Positions 7,510-29,379 of a stretch of DNA of 29,994 nt are shown in pieces. The stretch spans positions 1 through 29,994 of the IMG/VR virus record IMGVR_UViG_3300021964_000333; one strand, given 5' to 3'. Source of the stretch: a virus. Made by a program: the position numbers and the translations under genes. The notes under the pieces were generated by a model. That model was not told the origin of the DNA and searched no databases. It worked only from the letters and a program-made list of their open reading frames with translations. Numbering within the stretch: the stretch's first letter is position 1; each line of letters opens with the position of its first letter.

Positions 7510-8808
7510 ATGGCCTACTCAACTAATCCTTTCTCCGTAGCTACCTTTGGTGAAAGCTATGAACAGGCCGATGCTTCCTTTAGCCTTACAGGTGTAGCAG
7601 GTACAGGTGTAATCAATGGTGCAGGAGTTAGCGTTAGCTCACGTACTACTATTATCCTTACGGGTGTACAAGCTAACGGTGCAGCAGGTAGTGCAACAGC
7701 GGCAGCAGAAGCAGTAGTTGCACCAACGGGTGTAGCAGGTACAGGTGCAGCAGATGATGGCCTAACATTTATCTTAGGCGTTGGTACTACACCTACTATT
7801 ACTGGTGTATCTGCTACAGGTAATATAACTAGCTCTAACTCATTCTCAACATTTACAGCAGAGGGTGATGCACAACTTTCTACAGCACAACAAAAGTTTG
7901 GCACTGCATCATTACTGTTAGATGGAACAGATGATTATGTAGAGTCTGATAGTAACATTGATTTAAGTTCAGGTGATTTCACAGTAGATATGTGGATTAG
8001 ACCTGACAACGTTACAGGTTATAAAGGACTATTTCAGTCTGGTACAAGTTCTCTATTAAGTGTTTATTTAATTGGAGATCAAGTCCAAGGTACTGTAGCA
8101 GGATCAACGACTCTCTTTATTTCTGATACCAGAGTTTCTGCAAATGTCTGGACTATGATTACGGTTGAACGAGAAGGAAACGTTCATAGACTATACATTA
8201 ACGGAACATTAGAGGAATCAAGTTCTAGTGCTAACCGCCCAGACAATGGTACTTTTACTGTAGGTAAAAATGGTTTTGGTGATTTTGATGGTTACATTGA
8301 CGAAGTAAGACTTTCTAATGTAGCACAGTATACTGGAACAGGCTTTACTCCACCTACCTCTGCCTTTACAGTAGATAATGACACGTTAGCATTACTACAT
8401 TTTGATGGTACAAATGCTTCTACAGACATTGTAAATGCAGCTAACCTTGCTTATCTTACTGTAAGCGCTGGGTTTGGTCCTACTATCCAACCTGTAGGGT
8501 TTGGCTTAGAGATTATCACTGACTCACTTCTAGTAGATGGTGACGAAGTTGTAGTTGAGTCAGATGCTAACATCAGTCTAGCAGGTAAAGGTGTAGCAGG
8601 TACAGTATCAGGCAACACTGTTACAACAGATTGTCAAGCTGTAGTATTGCCAGTAGGTGTACAAGGTACGTTTACTGTAGGTGATGAAACAATTAACACA
8701 GTACAGTTTGACTATGAGTCAATTAAACAAAACTATAGCAGAGATCGTACTGCTTACATAGGCGAGTATAGCACACTAGGTAACACAGTGTATGTACGTG
8801 CAGCATAG
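7510..8808 (+). CDS. Fibre/adhesion protein with LamG-like domain, 432 aa
   Basis: Residues 25-110 are a series of short repeats that begin TGV (TGVAGTG, TGVQANG, TGVAGTG, TGVSATG). Residues ~115-290 form a LamG/concanavalin-like jelly roll with characteristic pieces: KFGTASLLLDGTDDYVE, SGDFTVDMWIRP, WTMITVEREGNVHRLYING, GYIDEVRLSNVAQY and ALLHFDG. Such domains usually bind sugars. After residue ~350 TGV-like repeats resume (GKGVAGT, VGVQGT), followed by a C-terminal NYSRDRTAYIG. The LamG segment uses AGA for arginine and GGA for glycine, unlike its flanks (CGT, GGT), which suggests insertion of an adhesion module into an older repeat protein. It contains one CCCAGCGC site on the opposite strand. 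Host-surface sugar binding is inferred from the fold. Confidence 0.75.
   Translation: MAYSTNPFSVATFGESYEQADASFSLTGVAGTGVINGAGVSVSSRTTIILTGVQANGAAGSATAAAEAVVAPTGVAGTGAADDGLTFILGVGTTPTITGVSATGNITSSNSFSTFTAEGDAQLSTAQQKFGTASLLLDGTDDYVESDSNIDLSSGDFTVDMWIRPDNVTGYKGLFQSGTSSLLSVYLIGDQVQGTVAGSTTLFISDTRVSANVWTMITVEREGNVHRLYINGTLEESSSSANRPDNGTFTVGKNGFGDFDGYIDEVRLSNVAQYTGTGFTPPTSAFTVDNDTLALLHFDGTNASTDIVNAANLAYLTVSAGFGPTIQPVGFGLEIITDSLLVDGDEVVVESDANISLAGKGVAGTVSGNTVTTDCQAVVLPVGVQGTFTVGDETINTVQFDYESIKQNYSRDRTAYIGEYSTLGNTVYVRAA
8465..8472 (-). repeat. CCCAGCGC dispersed motif, site 3
   Basis: In the LamG-type fibre gene, reverse orientation (GCGCTGGG on the + strand, encoding SAG). Confidence 0.8.
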
Positions 8809-22286: not shown

Positions 22287-25200
22287 GTGGCTGACCCATA
22301 TAACTATTACACAGCAGAATCAATGCAGGACAAGAAGCTGTCTGACTTACGTACAGATAGTGCTTTCCTTAAAGATGCTGTAACATTCCTGAAGAGTAAT
22401 CGTTTAGAATACACAGACGAAGACTTACAGGATATGTCTGCATCTGACATCACAGATAAAGTCCTTGAGCATATGCGTTACCAATCAGTTAATGAACGCA
22501 CTATGTATAAAGACTATTACTATCTAGCTGATCAAACTACGCCAACACAAGAACGTGAAGCTTTCAGTCGTTTGATGTTTGCTTTTGATAATGCTAAAGG
22601 TGAAGGTTGGTTTGACCGTGGTGGTGAAAAGATACAAGACTATGCAGGTGCTGTACTATCATCTCCTACTACAATGGCTTCTGCTGCTGCAGGTTTGTTT
22701 ACTGCAGGTACTGGTGCTGTAGCTATTAAAGCGGGTGCTGAGTTAGCTAAAGGTGCAGGTAAGGCTGTATCTGCTTCTATGCTACGTGGCGCAGCTATGA
22801 ATAACCTTAAGAAAGCTGGTATCGTTGCTGCTGCAGATGGTAGCATCGGTGCTTTAACTGATTTAGCTAATCAACGTATTCGTCAGATAGGTGGTAAGTC
22901 TATTGGTGAAGAGCGTGACATTAGCTTAGGACAAGCTGCAGTGTCGGGTGCACTTAGTGCTGCACCAGGTGTAGCCTTATACGGCGCTGGGAAGCTTGTA
23001 TCTAACCGTGCATCTAAGAAACTTGTAGAGGCAGGTCAGATGGGAGAGGAGGCACTAAACGAAAGACGTGTCGCCGCAAAAGAGGCAGCTAAGAAGCTGT
23101 CTGATAAAGCTAAGAAGACACCAGAAGGTAAAGCTCTACTAAGCTACGTGTCAAACAATATGCTACGTGCTATTGATCCACGTATGGTAGAGGAAGGTAA
23201 AGTTGTACGTCAAGACATCTTTAGTGCTGACTTACCTGATGGGCTTATCGGTGGCTTTGATGTAGACACTATCCAGCGTATCGCTGCTGCAGGTTATGAA
23301 GTAGCAGAAGAGCTAGGTGTTACAGATGATATGATCAAGCAAGGTAAGCGTATCACTGAAGTGATTGCTGATAGTATCACTAGTGGCGATGGTAAGGCTC
23401 TCGCTGTCATTGATAATATACGTGAGAAGTATAGCCTGTCACGTGAACAACTATCAGTAGCTTATGCATCAGAAGTATCAGACGCTGCTCGTATCTTGCG
23501 TAGCTCTCGTACAGCTAGAGATAAAGTTTATGCTAAGAGAGTTGACTCTTTGTTTGAGGCAGGGATGTCACCCGTTACGTCTGACGAAATGAAGGTCATG
23601 AAAGATGTACAGAAAAGTATGTCTTCTATTGTGATCAACAATCTGAAAGACCTTGAGAATGCTAGACGTATGTTCATGACTTCTCAACCAGCTACAACTA
23701 TGCGTAACAACATCTTCTCTGTAGCTATGACAGGTATCGACTTGATAGATCAGGTGACTACTGCTGCAGTACGTACTGTGCGTAACAACCCTGAAGCTTC
23801 AGCAGGTGCAACACTACAAGGCTCATTGGATAACATCAAGTATCTTACATTTGATAATTATGTCGCTGAAGCTTTGACTACTATGTTACACGAGAGCGCA
23901 CCTAAGCGTATGCAGAAAGTATTCTATGATGCAGCTATAGCTGAACAGGCTGTGGTAGGCTCTAATAAGTTCTCTAAAGTAGGCGCAGCTATGAACGTTC
24001 TGAACACTATGTCAGACCGTGTAGTTAAACGTGCTGTGATTGCTGGTAGCATTGACCGTCAGCTTAAGCAATTAGGCAATAAAGAGCTAGGCACTGACGT
24101 TCTAGACATGATGCGTAAAGGACGTACACAAGACTTACCTGATGATATCCTACAAGCTGCACTAGATGAATCACTAGCGTTTACATTCCAGCGTAGGTTT
24201 GGTGGTAAAGATGCTAGCGCTGTGAATAAAGCTGCAGCTAGTGCTATCCGTACAATCCACAACTACGGGCTTACACTAGCCATTCCATTCCCACGATACT
24301 TGGCATCACAAGCTAAGTTCGTGTCGGACTACACAGGACTTACTGTAGCTCGTCGTATTGTTTCAGGTAGACGTGTAGCAGATGAAGAATATGGTAAACT
24401 TGCCACTGGTTGGATGGGTACGTATGGATTAATAAACGTTTATCAGAATAAGATATACGATGGTACTAGCTGGAACGAAGTAGTAGACCCTAATAATAAT
24501 CGTACATATGATGCTCAATCAGCTATGGGTCCACTGACTGCACAAGCATACATATCAGACCACCTTGCTCGTAGATTAGAAGGTATGCCTGTTAAACCTG
24601 GAAAAGAAGTAAGGGCAGACTTAGCTAAGATATTAGGTACATCTGAGTTCCGTGTTGATACAGGTTTAGTTGATGCTGTTATGTCAGGTCTAGATGGTAA
24701 AGGCTGGGATAAGTTTAACAGAACTATGTCTGATACAGTAATACCTGTAACATATCCTTTTGCTGTGTTTAAAGACTTCTATGGACAGTTTGATCCACGT
24801 AGTTCTTACATCCCTAACACAGAAGACCCAACATTCTCTATGCTAGACTTCCACGGCATGAATGTTCCTATGAATCTGTATCAACGTGTAACACGTCAGC
24901 TACCAGACTTTAACACAGATGAAATGGCTAACACCTTTAACGAAATGTTTGATACTAACATTGATAGTGACGGTGTTATGAAGTATCTAGAGTTCTTCTC
25001 TTCAGCTACACGTACACAGTTCCAGAATGATTATGCTAAAGATGCATTCGGTGATGACCTTAAGTATGATGCTATCCGCATGAATGTCTTGGGTGATGGA
25101 CCACTACGTATCCTAGACCCACTAGATAAACAGCTTACTGGACTTGTAGGTAGACCACCAAAGAATGCATTAGAGCGTGAAGTAACACGTCTACAGCTTG

Positions 25201-25760
25201 ATCCGTTTAAAGACTTGTATAACCCTTACGCTGAGAAGAACCGCTTATTAGAGACAGGCTTCCAACAGTTTGCACAAGGGCGTATGGCTCATGATATGGA
25301 GCAGTACATGGAGACTGAAACATACCGCAACATGACGGACGAACAGAAACGCTTAGAGCTACCTAAACAGTTTAATGCTCTAGAGACTTTGTATCGTGGT
25401 GTAGTAGAAGATCAGCTATTACGCTATGCTCAAGCAGAGCCATCACGTAGACGTGACTACCAGTACTACATCAGAGGTGAGTACGAAGCTATGTCTGACC
25501 AAGATAGAGCGTATGGTGAAGAAGCTTGGAAAGCAGATCGTGGATACTACTCACAAAGCATCGGCTCTATCTTCGAGACACGTGATATGACTATTGATGA
25601 TGCAGTAGAGTTTATAAGAACAAATGAAGACTTCACTGATGAAGAGAAGAACATATACGAGACTAACTTGTATCGCAGTTATGTAGATGCTGCTGCATTA
25701 GTACGGAAGCGTTCACAACAAAGAGCTAGAGGCGCAGCAGAAGCACTAGCAGCAGATTAA
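22287..25760 (+). CDS. Very large internal virion protein, 1157 aa
   Basis: The longest gene in the window and the last of the late block, starting with GTG at 22287 (ADPYNYYTAESMQ), seven bases after TAAGGA. Residues ~117-165 are Ala/Gly-rich and hydrophobic (MASAAAGLFTAGTGAVAIKA), and 210-235 again (AAVSGALSAAPGVALYGAGK), which could enter membranes. The rest is helical and charged, with a proline/aromatic part at ~790-850 (VIPVTYPFAVFKDFYGQFDP). I see no transglycosylase or protease signature. The size and terminal place match T7 gp16 and the giant ejection proteins of marine podoviruses, which help make the DNA channel across the envelope. That role is inference. It holds one CCCAGCGC site on the opposite strand. 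Confidence 0.65.
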   Translation: MADPYNYYTAESMQDKKLSDLRTDSAFLKDAVTFLKSNRLEYTDEDLQDMSASDITDKVLEHMRYQSVNERTMYKDYYYLADQTTPTQEREAFSRLMFAFDNAKGEGWFDRGGEKIQDYAGAVLSSPTTMASAAAGLFTAGTGAVAIKAGAELAKGAGKAVSASMLRGAAMNNLKKAGIVAAADGSIGALTDLANQRIRQIGGKSIGEERDISLGQAAVSGALSAAPGVALYGAGKLVSNRASKKLVEAGQMGEEALNERRVAAKEAAKKLSDKAKKTPEGKALLSYVSNNMLRAIDPRMVEEGKVVRQDIFSADLPDGLIGGFDVDTIQRIAAAGYEVAEELGVTDDMIKQGKRITEVIADSITSGDGKALAVIDNIREKYSLSREQLSVAYASEVSDAARILRSSRTARDKVYAKRVDSLFEAGMSPVTSDEMKVMKDVQKSMSSIVINNLKDLENARRMFMTSQPATTMRNNIFSVAMTGIDLIDQVTTAAVRTVRNNPEASAGATLQGSLDNIKYLTFDNYVAEALTTMLHESAPKRMQKVFYDAAIAEQAVVGSNKFSKVGAAMNVLNTMSDRVVKRAVIAGSIDRQLKQLGNKELGTDVLDMMRKGRTQDLPDDILQAALDESLAFTFQRRFGGKDASAVNKAAASAIRTIHNYGLTLAIPFPRYLASQAKFVSDYTGLTVARRIVSGRRVADEEYGKLATGWMGTYGLINVYQNKIYDGTSWNEVVDPNNNRTYDAQSAMGPLTAQAYISDHLARRLEGMPVKPGKEVRADLAKILGTSEFRVDTGLVDAVMSGLDGKGWDKFNRTMSDTVIPVTYPFAVFKDFYGQFDPRSSYIPNTEDPTFSMLDFHGMNVPMNLYQRVTRQLPDFNTDEMANTFNEMFDTNIDSDGVMKYLEFFSSATRTQFQNDYAKDAFGDDLKYDAIRMNVLGDGPLRILDPLDKQLTGLVGRPPKNALEREVTRLQLDPFKDLYNPYAEKNRLLETGFQQFAQGRMAHDMEQYMETETYRNMTDEQKRLELPKQFNALETLYRGVVEDQLLRYAQAEPSRRRDYQYYIRGEYEAMSDQDRAYGEEAWKADRGYYSQSIGSIFETRDMTIDDAVEFIRTNEDFTDEEKNIYETNLYRSYVDAAALVRKRSQQRARGAAEALAAD
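22984..22991 (-). repeat. CCCAGCGC dispersed motif, site 9
   Basis: In the 1157-aa gene, reverse orientation, codons ggc gct ggg (GAG); core only. Confidence 0.8.
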
Positions 25761-25765
25761 AAGAG

Positions 25766-25796
25766 AGGGGCCAAGCGGCCCCTTTACTTTTTTATA
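25766..25796. terminator. Bidirectional intrinsic terminator at the convergent boundary
   Basis: AGGGGCC (25766-25772), loop AAGC, GGCCCCT (25777-25783): a perfect seven-pair GC-rich stem. On the + side it is followed by TTACTTTTTT; read on the - strand the stem is followed by CTCTTTTAATC. It sits five bases after the late-gene stop and touches the stop codon of the convergent 68-aa gene, so it can end transcripts from both sides. Confidence 0.85.
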
Positions 25797-25990
25797 CCAT
25801 GCATTGATGCACTTCGTTCTGCCCACATCTGCACCTCTATTAAGTTCTTTAGTGCTTCGTGTTTCTCTTCTGTGCTGTGTAAGTTATCCACTATGTATTG
25901 CTGTAGATTCCTGACACCTTCATGTAACCCTGCCCTAAACTGCTTATGTCTCCCAGAGATGAATGCTTGTGCTTCTTTCTCTAGACTCAT
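25784..25990 (-). CDS. Acb2/Tad1-like small protein, candidate anti-CBASS nucleotide sponge
   Basis: A 68-residue helical-hairpin protein: helix one about 21-37 (GLHEGVRNLQQYIVDNL), a short turn with STEE, then a second helix 40-64 containing HEALKNLIEVQMWAERSASM. The turn S/T-x-E-K, the A-L-x-x-L spacing and E-x-x-MWA resemble the C-terminal signature of the Acb2/Tad1 hairpin family (DUF7681), known to bind cyclic nucleotides and block CBASS. The N-terminal part is shorter and divergent, and I cannot confirm the ligand-binding residues, so a generic small phage protein remains possible. It starts directly after the HNH gene stop (TAAATG), using GAAAGGAAA as ribosome site, and ends at the shared terminator. 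Confidence 0.5.
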   Translation of the reverse strand: MSLEKEAQAFISGRHKQFRAGLHEGVRNLQQYIVDNLHSTEEKHEALKNLIEVQMWAERSASMHGIKK

Positions 25991-26431
25991 TTATTTCCTT
26001 TCATGCCTTTCTAGATAGTCTATTCCTTTTTGTAGTCCTTCTATGTTGTCACCCATCTTACCTATACCACTATTGCAAGACTTACATAACCAACCTCTAA
26101 AAGCATATGTTATATGGTCATGATCTAGTTGTATGTTTTCAGGTTGTATTACAATACCACAGCAATCGCAAGGTGTAGGCACGGTAGGTTTTGGTGGTGC
26201 TTCTTTTCTTGCTACACGTATACCTTTATCATACTCTTGTCTACAGGCTCTGCAGCACTTAGCTTTACCTCCAGCACTAAAACCAGCTACACCTTTTTCT
26301 CTATTAAATATAGCTATTGCATAAGAAGCAAAAGCTCTTTCAGGTAAATCTTTCTTACAGCCTTGACAGTAATATGTATCTCCTTGTGGTTCTGGTTGTT
26401 TAGGTTCTTCGTTAAACAATTTAAGTTGCAT
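25991..26431 (-). CDS. Endonuclease VII-like HNH nuclease
   Basis: This 146-residue protein has two zinc-binding parts. An N-terminal ribbon has C22-x2-C25 and C60-x2-C63. The nuclease core has C88-x-C90-C91, then QLDHDH (101-106), FRGWLCKSCNSGIGKMGDN (111-129) with C116-x2-C119-N. This His/Asp/Asn set is the recombination endonuclease VII (T4 gp49-type) beta-beta-alpha-metal fold, which cuts branched DNA such as four-way junctions and clears replicative DNA for packaging. It could also act as a free-standing homing-type HNH enzyme, but the DHDH and FRGWLC...CN pattern fits endonuclease VII better. The GAGG site lies before ATG. It follows a non-coding gap after the 44-aa gene. Confidence 0.8.
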   Translation of the reverse strand: MQLKLFNEEPKQPEPQGDTYYCQGCKKDLPERAFASYAIAIFNREKGVAGFSAGGKAKCCRACRQEYDKGIRVARKEAPPKPTVPTPCDCCGIVIQPENIQLDHDHITYAFRGWLCKSCNSGIGKMGDNIEGLQKGIDYLERHERK

Positions 26432-28760: not shown

Positions 28761-28918
28761 GATTTTCTTTTCACCTCTATCTGTTTAATCTTTGCATCTA
28801 TATCGTATACAACATCCTGTATAAGTTCCTTCACGGTTTGCTCATACATATCTTCTGATATAGGAAGTATGTTGTCTTCTTCATCTATATCTATAGTCAT
28901 TTTAATGTCAAACTTCAT
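28757..28918 (-). CDS. 53-aa acidic protein in the nucleotide operon, function unknown
   Basis: Short ORF that begins MKFDIKMTIDIDEEDNILPI and ends with a charged helix (DIDAKIKQIEVKRKS). It is acidic at the start and basic at the end, with no cysteine or membrane part. Reality is supported by two exact ATGA overlaps: its ATG (28916-28918) sits in the stop of the MazG-like gene, and its TGA (28757-28759) sits in the start of the reductase gene. No homologue comes to mind; a regulatory or coupling peptide for the reductase is possible but unproven. Confidence 0.7.
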   Translation of the reverse strand: MKFDIKMTIDIDEEDNILPISEDMYEQTVKELIQDVVYDIDAKIKQIEVKRKS

Positions 28919-29379
28919 GCCGCCTTTTCCAGTAAATCAGTAAGATCGGGCTTCTTATAGTTTGGCCCTTTCATAACCTTGCCATCTTCACGCAGGATAG
29001 GGTTGCCGTTGCTGTCTAGCTTAGACATGTTACTGTTATGCACACGTGCGAATGCTTCCATAAATACAGCCTCTCCGTAATACTCTAGTCCACCTTCTAA
29101 TGCACGACTTACCTGCCCTTGCTGTTTAAGTGTAGCTTCACGTTCCTCTTCACGTAGGAGCATACCTATATGATCGGGTGCTGTAAGAGCTAGACCTGTC
29201 GATACATATAGTAGATCACATAGTTCCTTCAAGTGTTCTGCTGTACCAAACTGCTCAGCCCTGTACTCCTCTAGTTCTTCATCAATAAGTTTAACCCACA
29301 AGCGTGGGTCAAGTGATCCTTTGAAAGCTTTAATGAAAGCGCCAACCTTATCATGTGGCATTTCTACTTTGTCATTCAT
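28915..29379 (-). CDS. MazG-like nucleoside triphosphate pyrophosphohydrolase
   Basis: This 154-residue all-helical protein has the metal-binding acidic motif of the MazG/PRA-PH superfamily: E34-E35-x-E37-E38 (DEELEEYR), then E52-x2-D55 (ELCDLLYV). The C-terminal block VHNSNMSKLDSNG, REDGKVMKGPNYKKPDL is characteristic of the phage branch. These enzymes hydrolyse NTPs or dNTPs to monophosphates, which may salvage nucleotides or remove signalling or non-canonical nucleotides. A signalling role such as ppGpp removal has been proposed for phage MazG but cannot be read from sequence. The gene sits in the reductase operon, coupled by ATGA to DUF3310 before it and to the 53-aa gene after it. Confidence 0.85.
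   Translation of the reverse strand: MNDKVEMPHDKVGAFIKAFKGSLDPRLWVKLIDEELEEYRAEQFGTAEHLKELCDLLYVSTGLALTAPDHIGMLLREEEREATLKQQGQVSRALEGGLEYYGEAVFMEAFARVHNSNMSKLDSNGNPILREDGKVMKGPNYKKPDLTDLLEKAA

Follow-up and report, generated by a model that had tools for sequence, protein, structure and literature searches.

To our knowledge, every characterised hairpin of the Acb2/Tad1 superfamily (that is, Acb2 and Tad1) binds nucleotide signals. In the Acb2 protein of phage T4, Vs.4, the contacts with cGAMP are made by Y8, H11, K23, R79 and F82, and residues L29, A66, A73 and A77 take part in the hexamer (Jenson et al., PMC10097602). Acb2 is also reported to trigger the Panoptes (OptSE) system (PMC12657218). 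The viral DNA analysed in this work (hereafter the window, 29,994 nucleotides, positions 1 to 29,994 of the IMG/VR record IMGVR_UViG_3300021964_000333) encodes a small protein, P0001, which was compared with these systems. The features of its locus are the following:

25784..25990, minus strand: P0001 gene, divergent Acb2/Tad1-hairpin family protein of 68 aa (open reading frame and translation, relatives, dN/dS)
25995..26000, minus strand: RBS-like AAGGAA just 5' of the P0001 ATG (sequence)
25991..26431, minus strand: recombination endonuclease VII (PF02945), the upstream neighbour adjoining P0001 (Pfam match)
25764..25785, no strand: GC stem-loop with T-runs on either side, between the convergent blocks (sequence)
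22287..25760, plus strand: 1157-aa protein, the convergent late-block neighbour (list of open reading frames, locus comparison)

The P0001 reading frame consists of an ATG-initiated stretch of 68 codons followed by TAA, with AAAGGAAATAA directly before the ATG, and its translation from the minus strand is MSLEKEAQAFISGRHKQFRAGLHEGVRNLQQYIVDNLHSTEEKHEALKNLIEVQMWAERSASMHGIKK; the opposite (plus) strand across 25784-25990 is riddled with stops. The dN/dS ratio was about 0.10-0.21 against most relatives (dS 0.17-1.5) and 0.35 against one near relative (dS 0.07). Given these low ratios and about 79 viral loci (IMG/VR, marine) that encode relatives of P0001, it is a genuine gene under purifying selection and a chance reading frame is excluded, in agreement with the preliminary description, which had listed a 68-aa product here. 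The same description had placed it last in the early-direction block, at a convergent boundary near a terminator, and this position was confirmed. P0001 starts immediately after the stop of the endonuclease VII gene, the place of which is taken by PhoH upstream of the homologue in phage CRP-603, and is the final gene of the metabolism (early) block, the late block lying opposite, across the stem-loop, which is probably a bidirectional terminator. Among the 74 loci with enough downstream sequence, the convergent arrangement with an opposite-strand reading frame was kept in 73, and a GC stem-loop 3' of the gene in 69. Elsewhere in the early block, the product of 28915-29379 gave a weak match (E 0.0065) to MazG/PRA-PH-like pyrophosphohydrolases and is possibly one of them.

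Homologues of P0001 were found in the isolated Roseobacter phages CRP-603 (96% identity), CRP-2 (88%) and CRP-207 (46%), and in the CRP-603 and CRP-207 records they carry the label ‘hypothetical protein’. The window itself matches CRP-603 and CRP-2 with 82-90% nucleotide identity across the matched parts, and is therefore assigned to the HMO-2011-type group. This group, in which CRP-603, CRP-207 and others have been described, is reported to be dominant and widespread in marine waters (PMC9038755). Pattern and tblastn searches of 84,980 species genomes detected no bacterial relatives of P0001. A host genome, in which the cyclic-nucleotide defence suggested by the preliminary description might be looked for, was sought through the phage ribonucleotide reductase; the matches were confined to metagenome bins from other phyla, which seem to be phage contigs.

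The Pfam search with P0001 matched a single family, PF24729 (Acb2/Tad1 hairpin), at 13.9 bits (E 0.064), which falls far short of the gathering cut-off of 27 bits; the best close relative, that of CRP-207, reached 17.2 bits (E 0.0058), and 17 of the 20 aligned family members were matched. Since sub-threshold matches to PF24729 also turned up in 10 of 14 control genomes, the match of P0001 alone is a mere lead. In each of three related phage records with the gene, the reading frame equivalent to P0001 was the only PF24729 match of the record, and the homologue in Sulfitobacter phage phiCB2047-B scored above the cut-off. The latter gene (L026:2575-3141) encodes a fusion of RyR (PF02026) to the hairpin, both domains exceeding their cut-offs. 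One protein cluster, phrog_1454, was matched by P0001 (2.4e-5), T4 Vs.4 (7.1e-4) and the phiCB2047-B hairpin (3.1e-8).

A profile built on ten phage hairpins gave P0001 24.5 bits, and the maximum reached by about 10,000 shuffled sequences (half of them heptad-preserving) was 12.3 bits. In a search of 979 control reading frames with this profile, all matches at E<=1 were hairpin families, as far as the loci could be identified, and the members of the P0001 family ranked right behind the known hairpins. Alignment of the P0001-family profile with the ten undoubted hairpins by hhalign yielded 95.7% probability, E 1e-8 and a score of 45.5, the best of 200 heptad-preserving column permutations scoring 16.8; the ten-hairpin set had been gathered from a distant P0001 match, so that these profile and hhalign results are not fully independent, while the Pfam and structure-library results are independent of the set. 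In the DUF7681/Acb2 profile check proposed in the preliminary description, the single sequence stays below the cut-off, and homology is shown by the profile-profile comparison with its controls. Residues 20-61 align with generic phage hairpins gaplessly at 24% identity. A nine-sequence version of the ten-hairpin profile matched the solved structures of Acb2 homolog 43 (5e-9), Tad1 (6e-5) and, weakly, Vs.4, and the P0001-family profile matched Acb2 homolog 43 at 0.014; hhalign of the family against Vs.4 gave an uninformative 2.7%, Vs.4 being represented by one sequence with no profile. The single-sequence search of the PDB with P0001 gave no match, and PADLOC and NCBIfam searches gave nothing relevant. 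Arthrobacter phage Jasmine gp10 (L125:656-856), which lies beside the hairpin gene gp9 (L125:333-632), scored 26 bits with the hairpin profile, and the two are possibly tandem hairpin genes.

The AlphaFold2 monomer of P0001 is a clean, all-helical antiparallel hairpin (mean pLDDT 88.5) with the turn at residues 37-39 and the following predicted elements:

25799..25936, minus strand: minimal Acb2/Tad1 hairpin domain (PF24729-like), residues 19-64; the profiles align residues 16-61
25883..25984, minus strand: predicted helix 1, residues 3-36 (AlphaFold2 model)
25802..25873, minus strand: predicted helix 2, residues 40-63 (AlphaFold2 model), in which A46, L50, W56, A57 and R59 correspond to A66, L70, W76, A77 and R79 of T4 Vs.4

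The helical hairpin of the preliminary description is thus reproduced by the model, and its proposed turn, STEEKHEAL, is not, since this segment begins helix 2. In the BFVD viral structure search, the first rank went to the homologue of 88% identity, and all proteins at ranks 2-10 were named as Acb2/Tad1 hairpins, with weak E-values (0.1-0.75). Foldseek comparison of the model with solved structures (PDB) revealed nothing below E 0.4, Tad1 and Vs.4 appearing as weak matches at ranks 6, 11 and 18.

Residue equivalences were drawn from an ungapped helix-2 alignment of P0001 with Vs.4, according to which, besides the pairs given above, T68 of Vs.4 corresponds to K48, A73 to V53, S74 to Q54 and F82 to S62. 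Across 30 sequences of the P0001 family A46 and R59 never vary and K48 hardly does, and position 57, equivalent to the interface residue A77, is Ala or Ser. Of the hexamer-interface residues, A66 and A77 are hence preserved in P0001 and A73 is replaced. Among the cGAMP contacts, only R79, which contacts the phosphate, has a conserved counterpart in the family: the position of F82, which stacks on the base, is variable (S/D/A/E/K/R), PaP2 Acb2 itself having Ala there, and that of K23 is variable as well (H/Q/D/G), with no conserved basic residue. The (F/Y)-H motif of the N-terminal arm, which is present in some form in 7 of 9 aligned hairpins, is absent from P0001, and helix 1 of the model runs unbroken from residue 3 to 36, in contrast to the short helix plus loop of Acb2. 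Judged by its sequence, then, the known cyclic-dinucleotide site is missing from P0001, because the arm and an equivalent of K23 are gone, the F82 position is free and helix 1 is unbroken. Two residues invariant in the aligned hairpins, R (R67 in PaP2, which we take to be part of the Acb2 trinucleotide site) and T (T74 in PaP2), are represented by E41 and K48, so that any trinucleotide site would need rebuilding around K48; the same Lys stands in place of Vs.4 T68, the substitution T68M of which reduces binding.

At its N-terminus the family carries a conserved segment of about 14 residues that does not resemble Acb2:

25946..25990, minus strand: N-terminal segment, codons 1-15; carries the motif LEKEAxxF(I/V)Sx(R), cannot be aligned to the N-terminal arm of Acb2 and recurs in unrelated slot proteins

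Residues 3-14, LEKEAxxF(I/V)SxR, are among the best conserved of the family (L3, K5, E6, A7, F10). In related phages the same slot is filled by MazG, namely in HMO-2011 (gp21, record NC_021864), CRP-345 (gp39) and CRP-1 (gp30), or by the 83-aa gp34 in CRP-13. Their N-termini are MNKLEQEASNWMKERYK (HMO-2011 gp21), MKLEEEAKKYMENKYES (CRP-345 gp39), MNKLKEEAEQFLKEKYN (CRP-1 gp30, from an upstream start) and KKKTLEQEAQEFLKKEK (CRP-13 gp34), the motif lying in the slot genes at 25946-25990 of the window, L141:16386-16430, L139:9494-9540, L137:8613-8660 and L138:6720-6770. The pattern [LI][EKQ].[EQ][AV]..[FWY][ILMV] occurred within the first 35 residues of 11 out of 774 genes, nine of these being slot genes, and anywhere in 12 genes in 192,210 residues; it was missing from the slots of CRP-212, CRP-3, CRP-235, CRP-738 and HTVC033P. 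Among the MazG relatives of CRP-345 it was present in 14 of 15 with a convergent reading frame opposite and in 1 of 42 lacking one; this comparison is confounded by relatedness, the slot MazGs belonging to a single clade, and the motif had been defined post hoc on sequences already seen. The motif frequency for gp34 (35/37) is biased, the loci having been partly picked by the motif-containing pattern KKKTLEQE, and was not used as evidence. Independently of these biases, one N-terminal motif is common to three unrelated families that occupy one slot, which suggests a slot-linked N-terminal tag.

The motif was also considered as a DNA-level element, and this was rejected: its Leu codons differ between families (CTA, CTT, TTA), hence it is shared at the protein level. 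Within families its codon use is oddly constant. In the gp34-like genes (L320-L399, sampled partly by the motif) the codons of TLEQEAQEF are almost invariant (CTT GAG ... CAA GAG) and the flanking ones vary, hinting at a nucleotide-level constraint. As for the MazG gene gp30 of CRP-1 (L137:8613-8990), an in-frame upstream ATG at 8613 adds the shared motif to its product, and the true start probably lies upstream of the annotated one (8664). The sharing of the motif may reflect a docking tag or, on another reading, a common 5' end retained through recombination. We propose, tentatively and with considerable doubt, that the end of the early block of HMO-2011-type marine phages is an exchangeable accessory slot, the unrelated cargoes of which (the Acb2-type hairpin, MazG and gp34) would use a short helical tag, L(E/K)xEAxx(F/W/Y)hxx(K/R), for docking one partner and would interfere with nucleotide-based host signalling. 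If functional, the slot-linked motif would allow further accessory proteins to be recognised from their position and tag instead of their sequence family, and, if the proposal is true, loci with this slot architecture could guide the search for new counter-defence proteins.

That P0001 is an unrelated small helical hairpin resembling Acb2 by chance is very improbable: its low single-sequence Pfam score and the lack of a significant match among solved structures would fit such a case, which is opposed by the permutation and shuffle controls, by the unbroken run of nine neighbours named Acb2/Tad1 among the viral structures and by the phrog_1454 link to Vs.4 and the phiCB2047-B hairpin. Homology of P0001 to the Acb2/Tad1 hairpin superfamily is, in our opinion, established with very high confidence. 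An ordinary Acb2, sequestering cyclic dinucleotides at the site used by T4 Vs.4 and PaP2 Acb2, agrees with this homology and with the conservation of R59, A46, A57 and W56, and F10 could in principle replace Y8; this mode is nonetheless unlikely considering the loss of an arm motif found in nearly all aligned hairpins, the variability at the K23 and F82 positions and the single continuous helix of the model. Of the candidate Acb2/Tad1-type anti-CBASS protein of the preliminary description, the superfamily is supported by profile, profile-profile and structure searches with their controls; the anti-CBASS type stays putative, the single-sequence score being far below the Pfam cut-off, the Acb2 arm and pocket residues mostly gone and the beta domain of Tad1 lacking.

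The explanation that we favour is a divergent arm-less hairpin, which would form oligomers and probably capture a nucleotide signal of unspecified kind; because of the residue losses we rate its chances as about even and those of the canonical dinucleotide mode as low. A function related to that of the Acb2/Tad1 sponges is likely, and homology together with the MazG in the slot makes oligomerisation, nucleotide binding and a counter-defence role the most likely assignment. MazG pyrophosphohydrolase represents another nucleotide-handling class, and Atd1, a MazG-like phage protein, was reported to counter TIR-STING CBASS (PMC10419184). The protein would be built of a slot-characteristic N-terminal helical segment of about 14 residues and, joined to it, a minimal hairpin of two helices (about 45-50 residues). 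The hairpins of this early protein would assemble into a small oligomer comparable to the hexamers of Acb2 and Tad1, and the oligomer would hold a nucleotide-derived immune signal of the infected marine host, keeping it from the effector. The ligand would probably lie outside the canonical Acb2 dinucleotide site, the candidate contacts being the conserved basic residues K48 and R59 of helix 2, plus R14 and K67. The hairpin may instead be a homologous module of oligomerisation repurposed for a task other than nucleotide sequestration, for example as a scaffold or as an inhibitor acting by protein contact through the conserved N-terminal segment, which we consider possible and less probable than not. 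Such a module would account for the retention of core and interface residues with most ligand residues lost and for the high conservation of an N-terminal motif common to unrelated slot proteins, and PF24729 hairpins are known in fusions to other domains, e.g., RyR in phiCB2047-B. It is countered by the nucleotide binding of the characterised hairpins, by the retention of R59 and K48, and by the wide variation of ligand residues among Acb2 homologues themselves.

If P0001 is a stripped-down sponge of the Acb2 type, immunity based on nucleotide signals is of importance in Roseobacter-type hosts of the oligotrophic sea, and such a minimal hairpin would reveal the part of Acb2 that is indispensable. 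A phage sponge of the hairpin type is a known kind of protein, and the P0001 branch is apparently unannotated; as far as the primary structure goes, it is set apart from the known hairpins by its N-terminal arm and pocket residues.

Compared with the slot-mates MazG and gp34, P0001 has the same slot and the N-terminal motif L(E/K)xEAxx(F/W/Y) in common, whereas their C-terminal domains are unrelated to its own (PF03819 in MazG; no significant Pfam family in gp34). With Tad1 it shares the hairpin family PF24729, to which the two C-terminal helices of Tad1 belong; unlike Tad1, it is half as long, and the N-terminal four-strand beta-sheet domain is absent from its all-helical 68-aa model. The generic DUF7681/PF24729 hairpins, such as Paenibacillus phage Tripp gp59, Gordonia phage Remus gp51 and Curtobacterium phage JoyLin gp61 (‘cyclic nucleotide sequestering protein’), have R and T at the positions of PaP2 R67 and T74 and mostly an FxFH/FKYH N-terminus, in contrast to E41, K48 and LEKEAxxF in P0001. 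Acb2 (T4 Vs.4, PaP2/PaMx33 Acb2 and ‘Acb2 homolog 43’, PDB 9ptq) differs by its length of 88-94 aa (76 for 9ptq), by helices about eight residues longer each in Vs.4, by the (F/Y)-H arm and by Y8, H11, K23 and F82, which have no equivalents in P0001, and resembles it in being a small stand-alone antiparallel hairpin with the helix-2 pattern AxxxL.E...MWA.R, encoded by a phage gene that lies outside the structural block.
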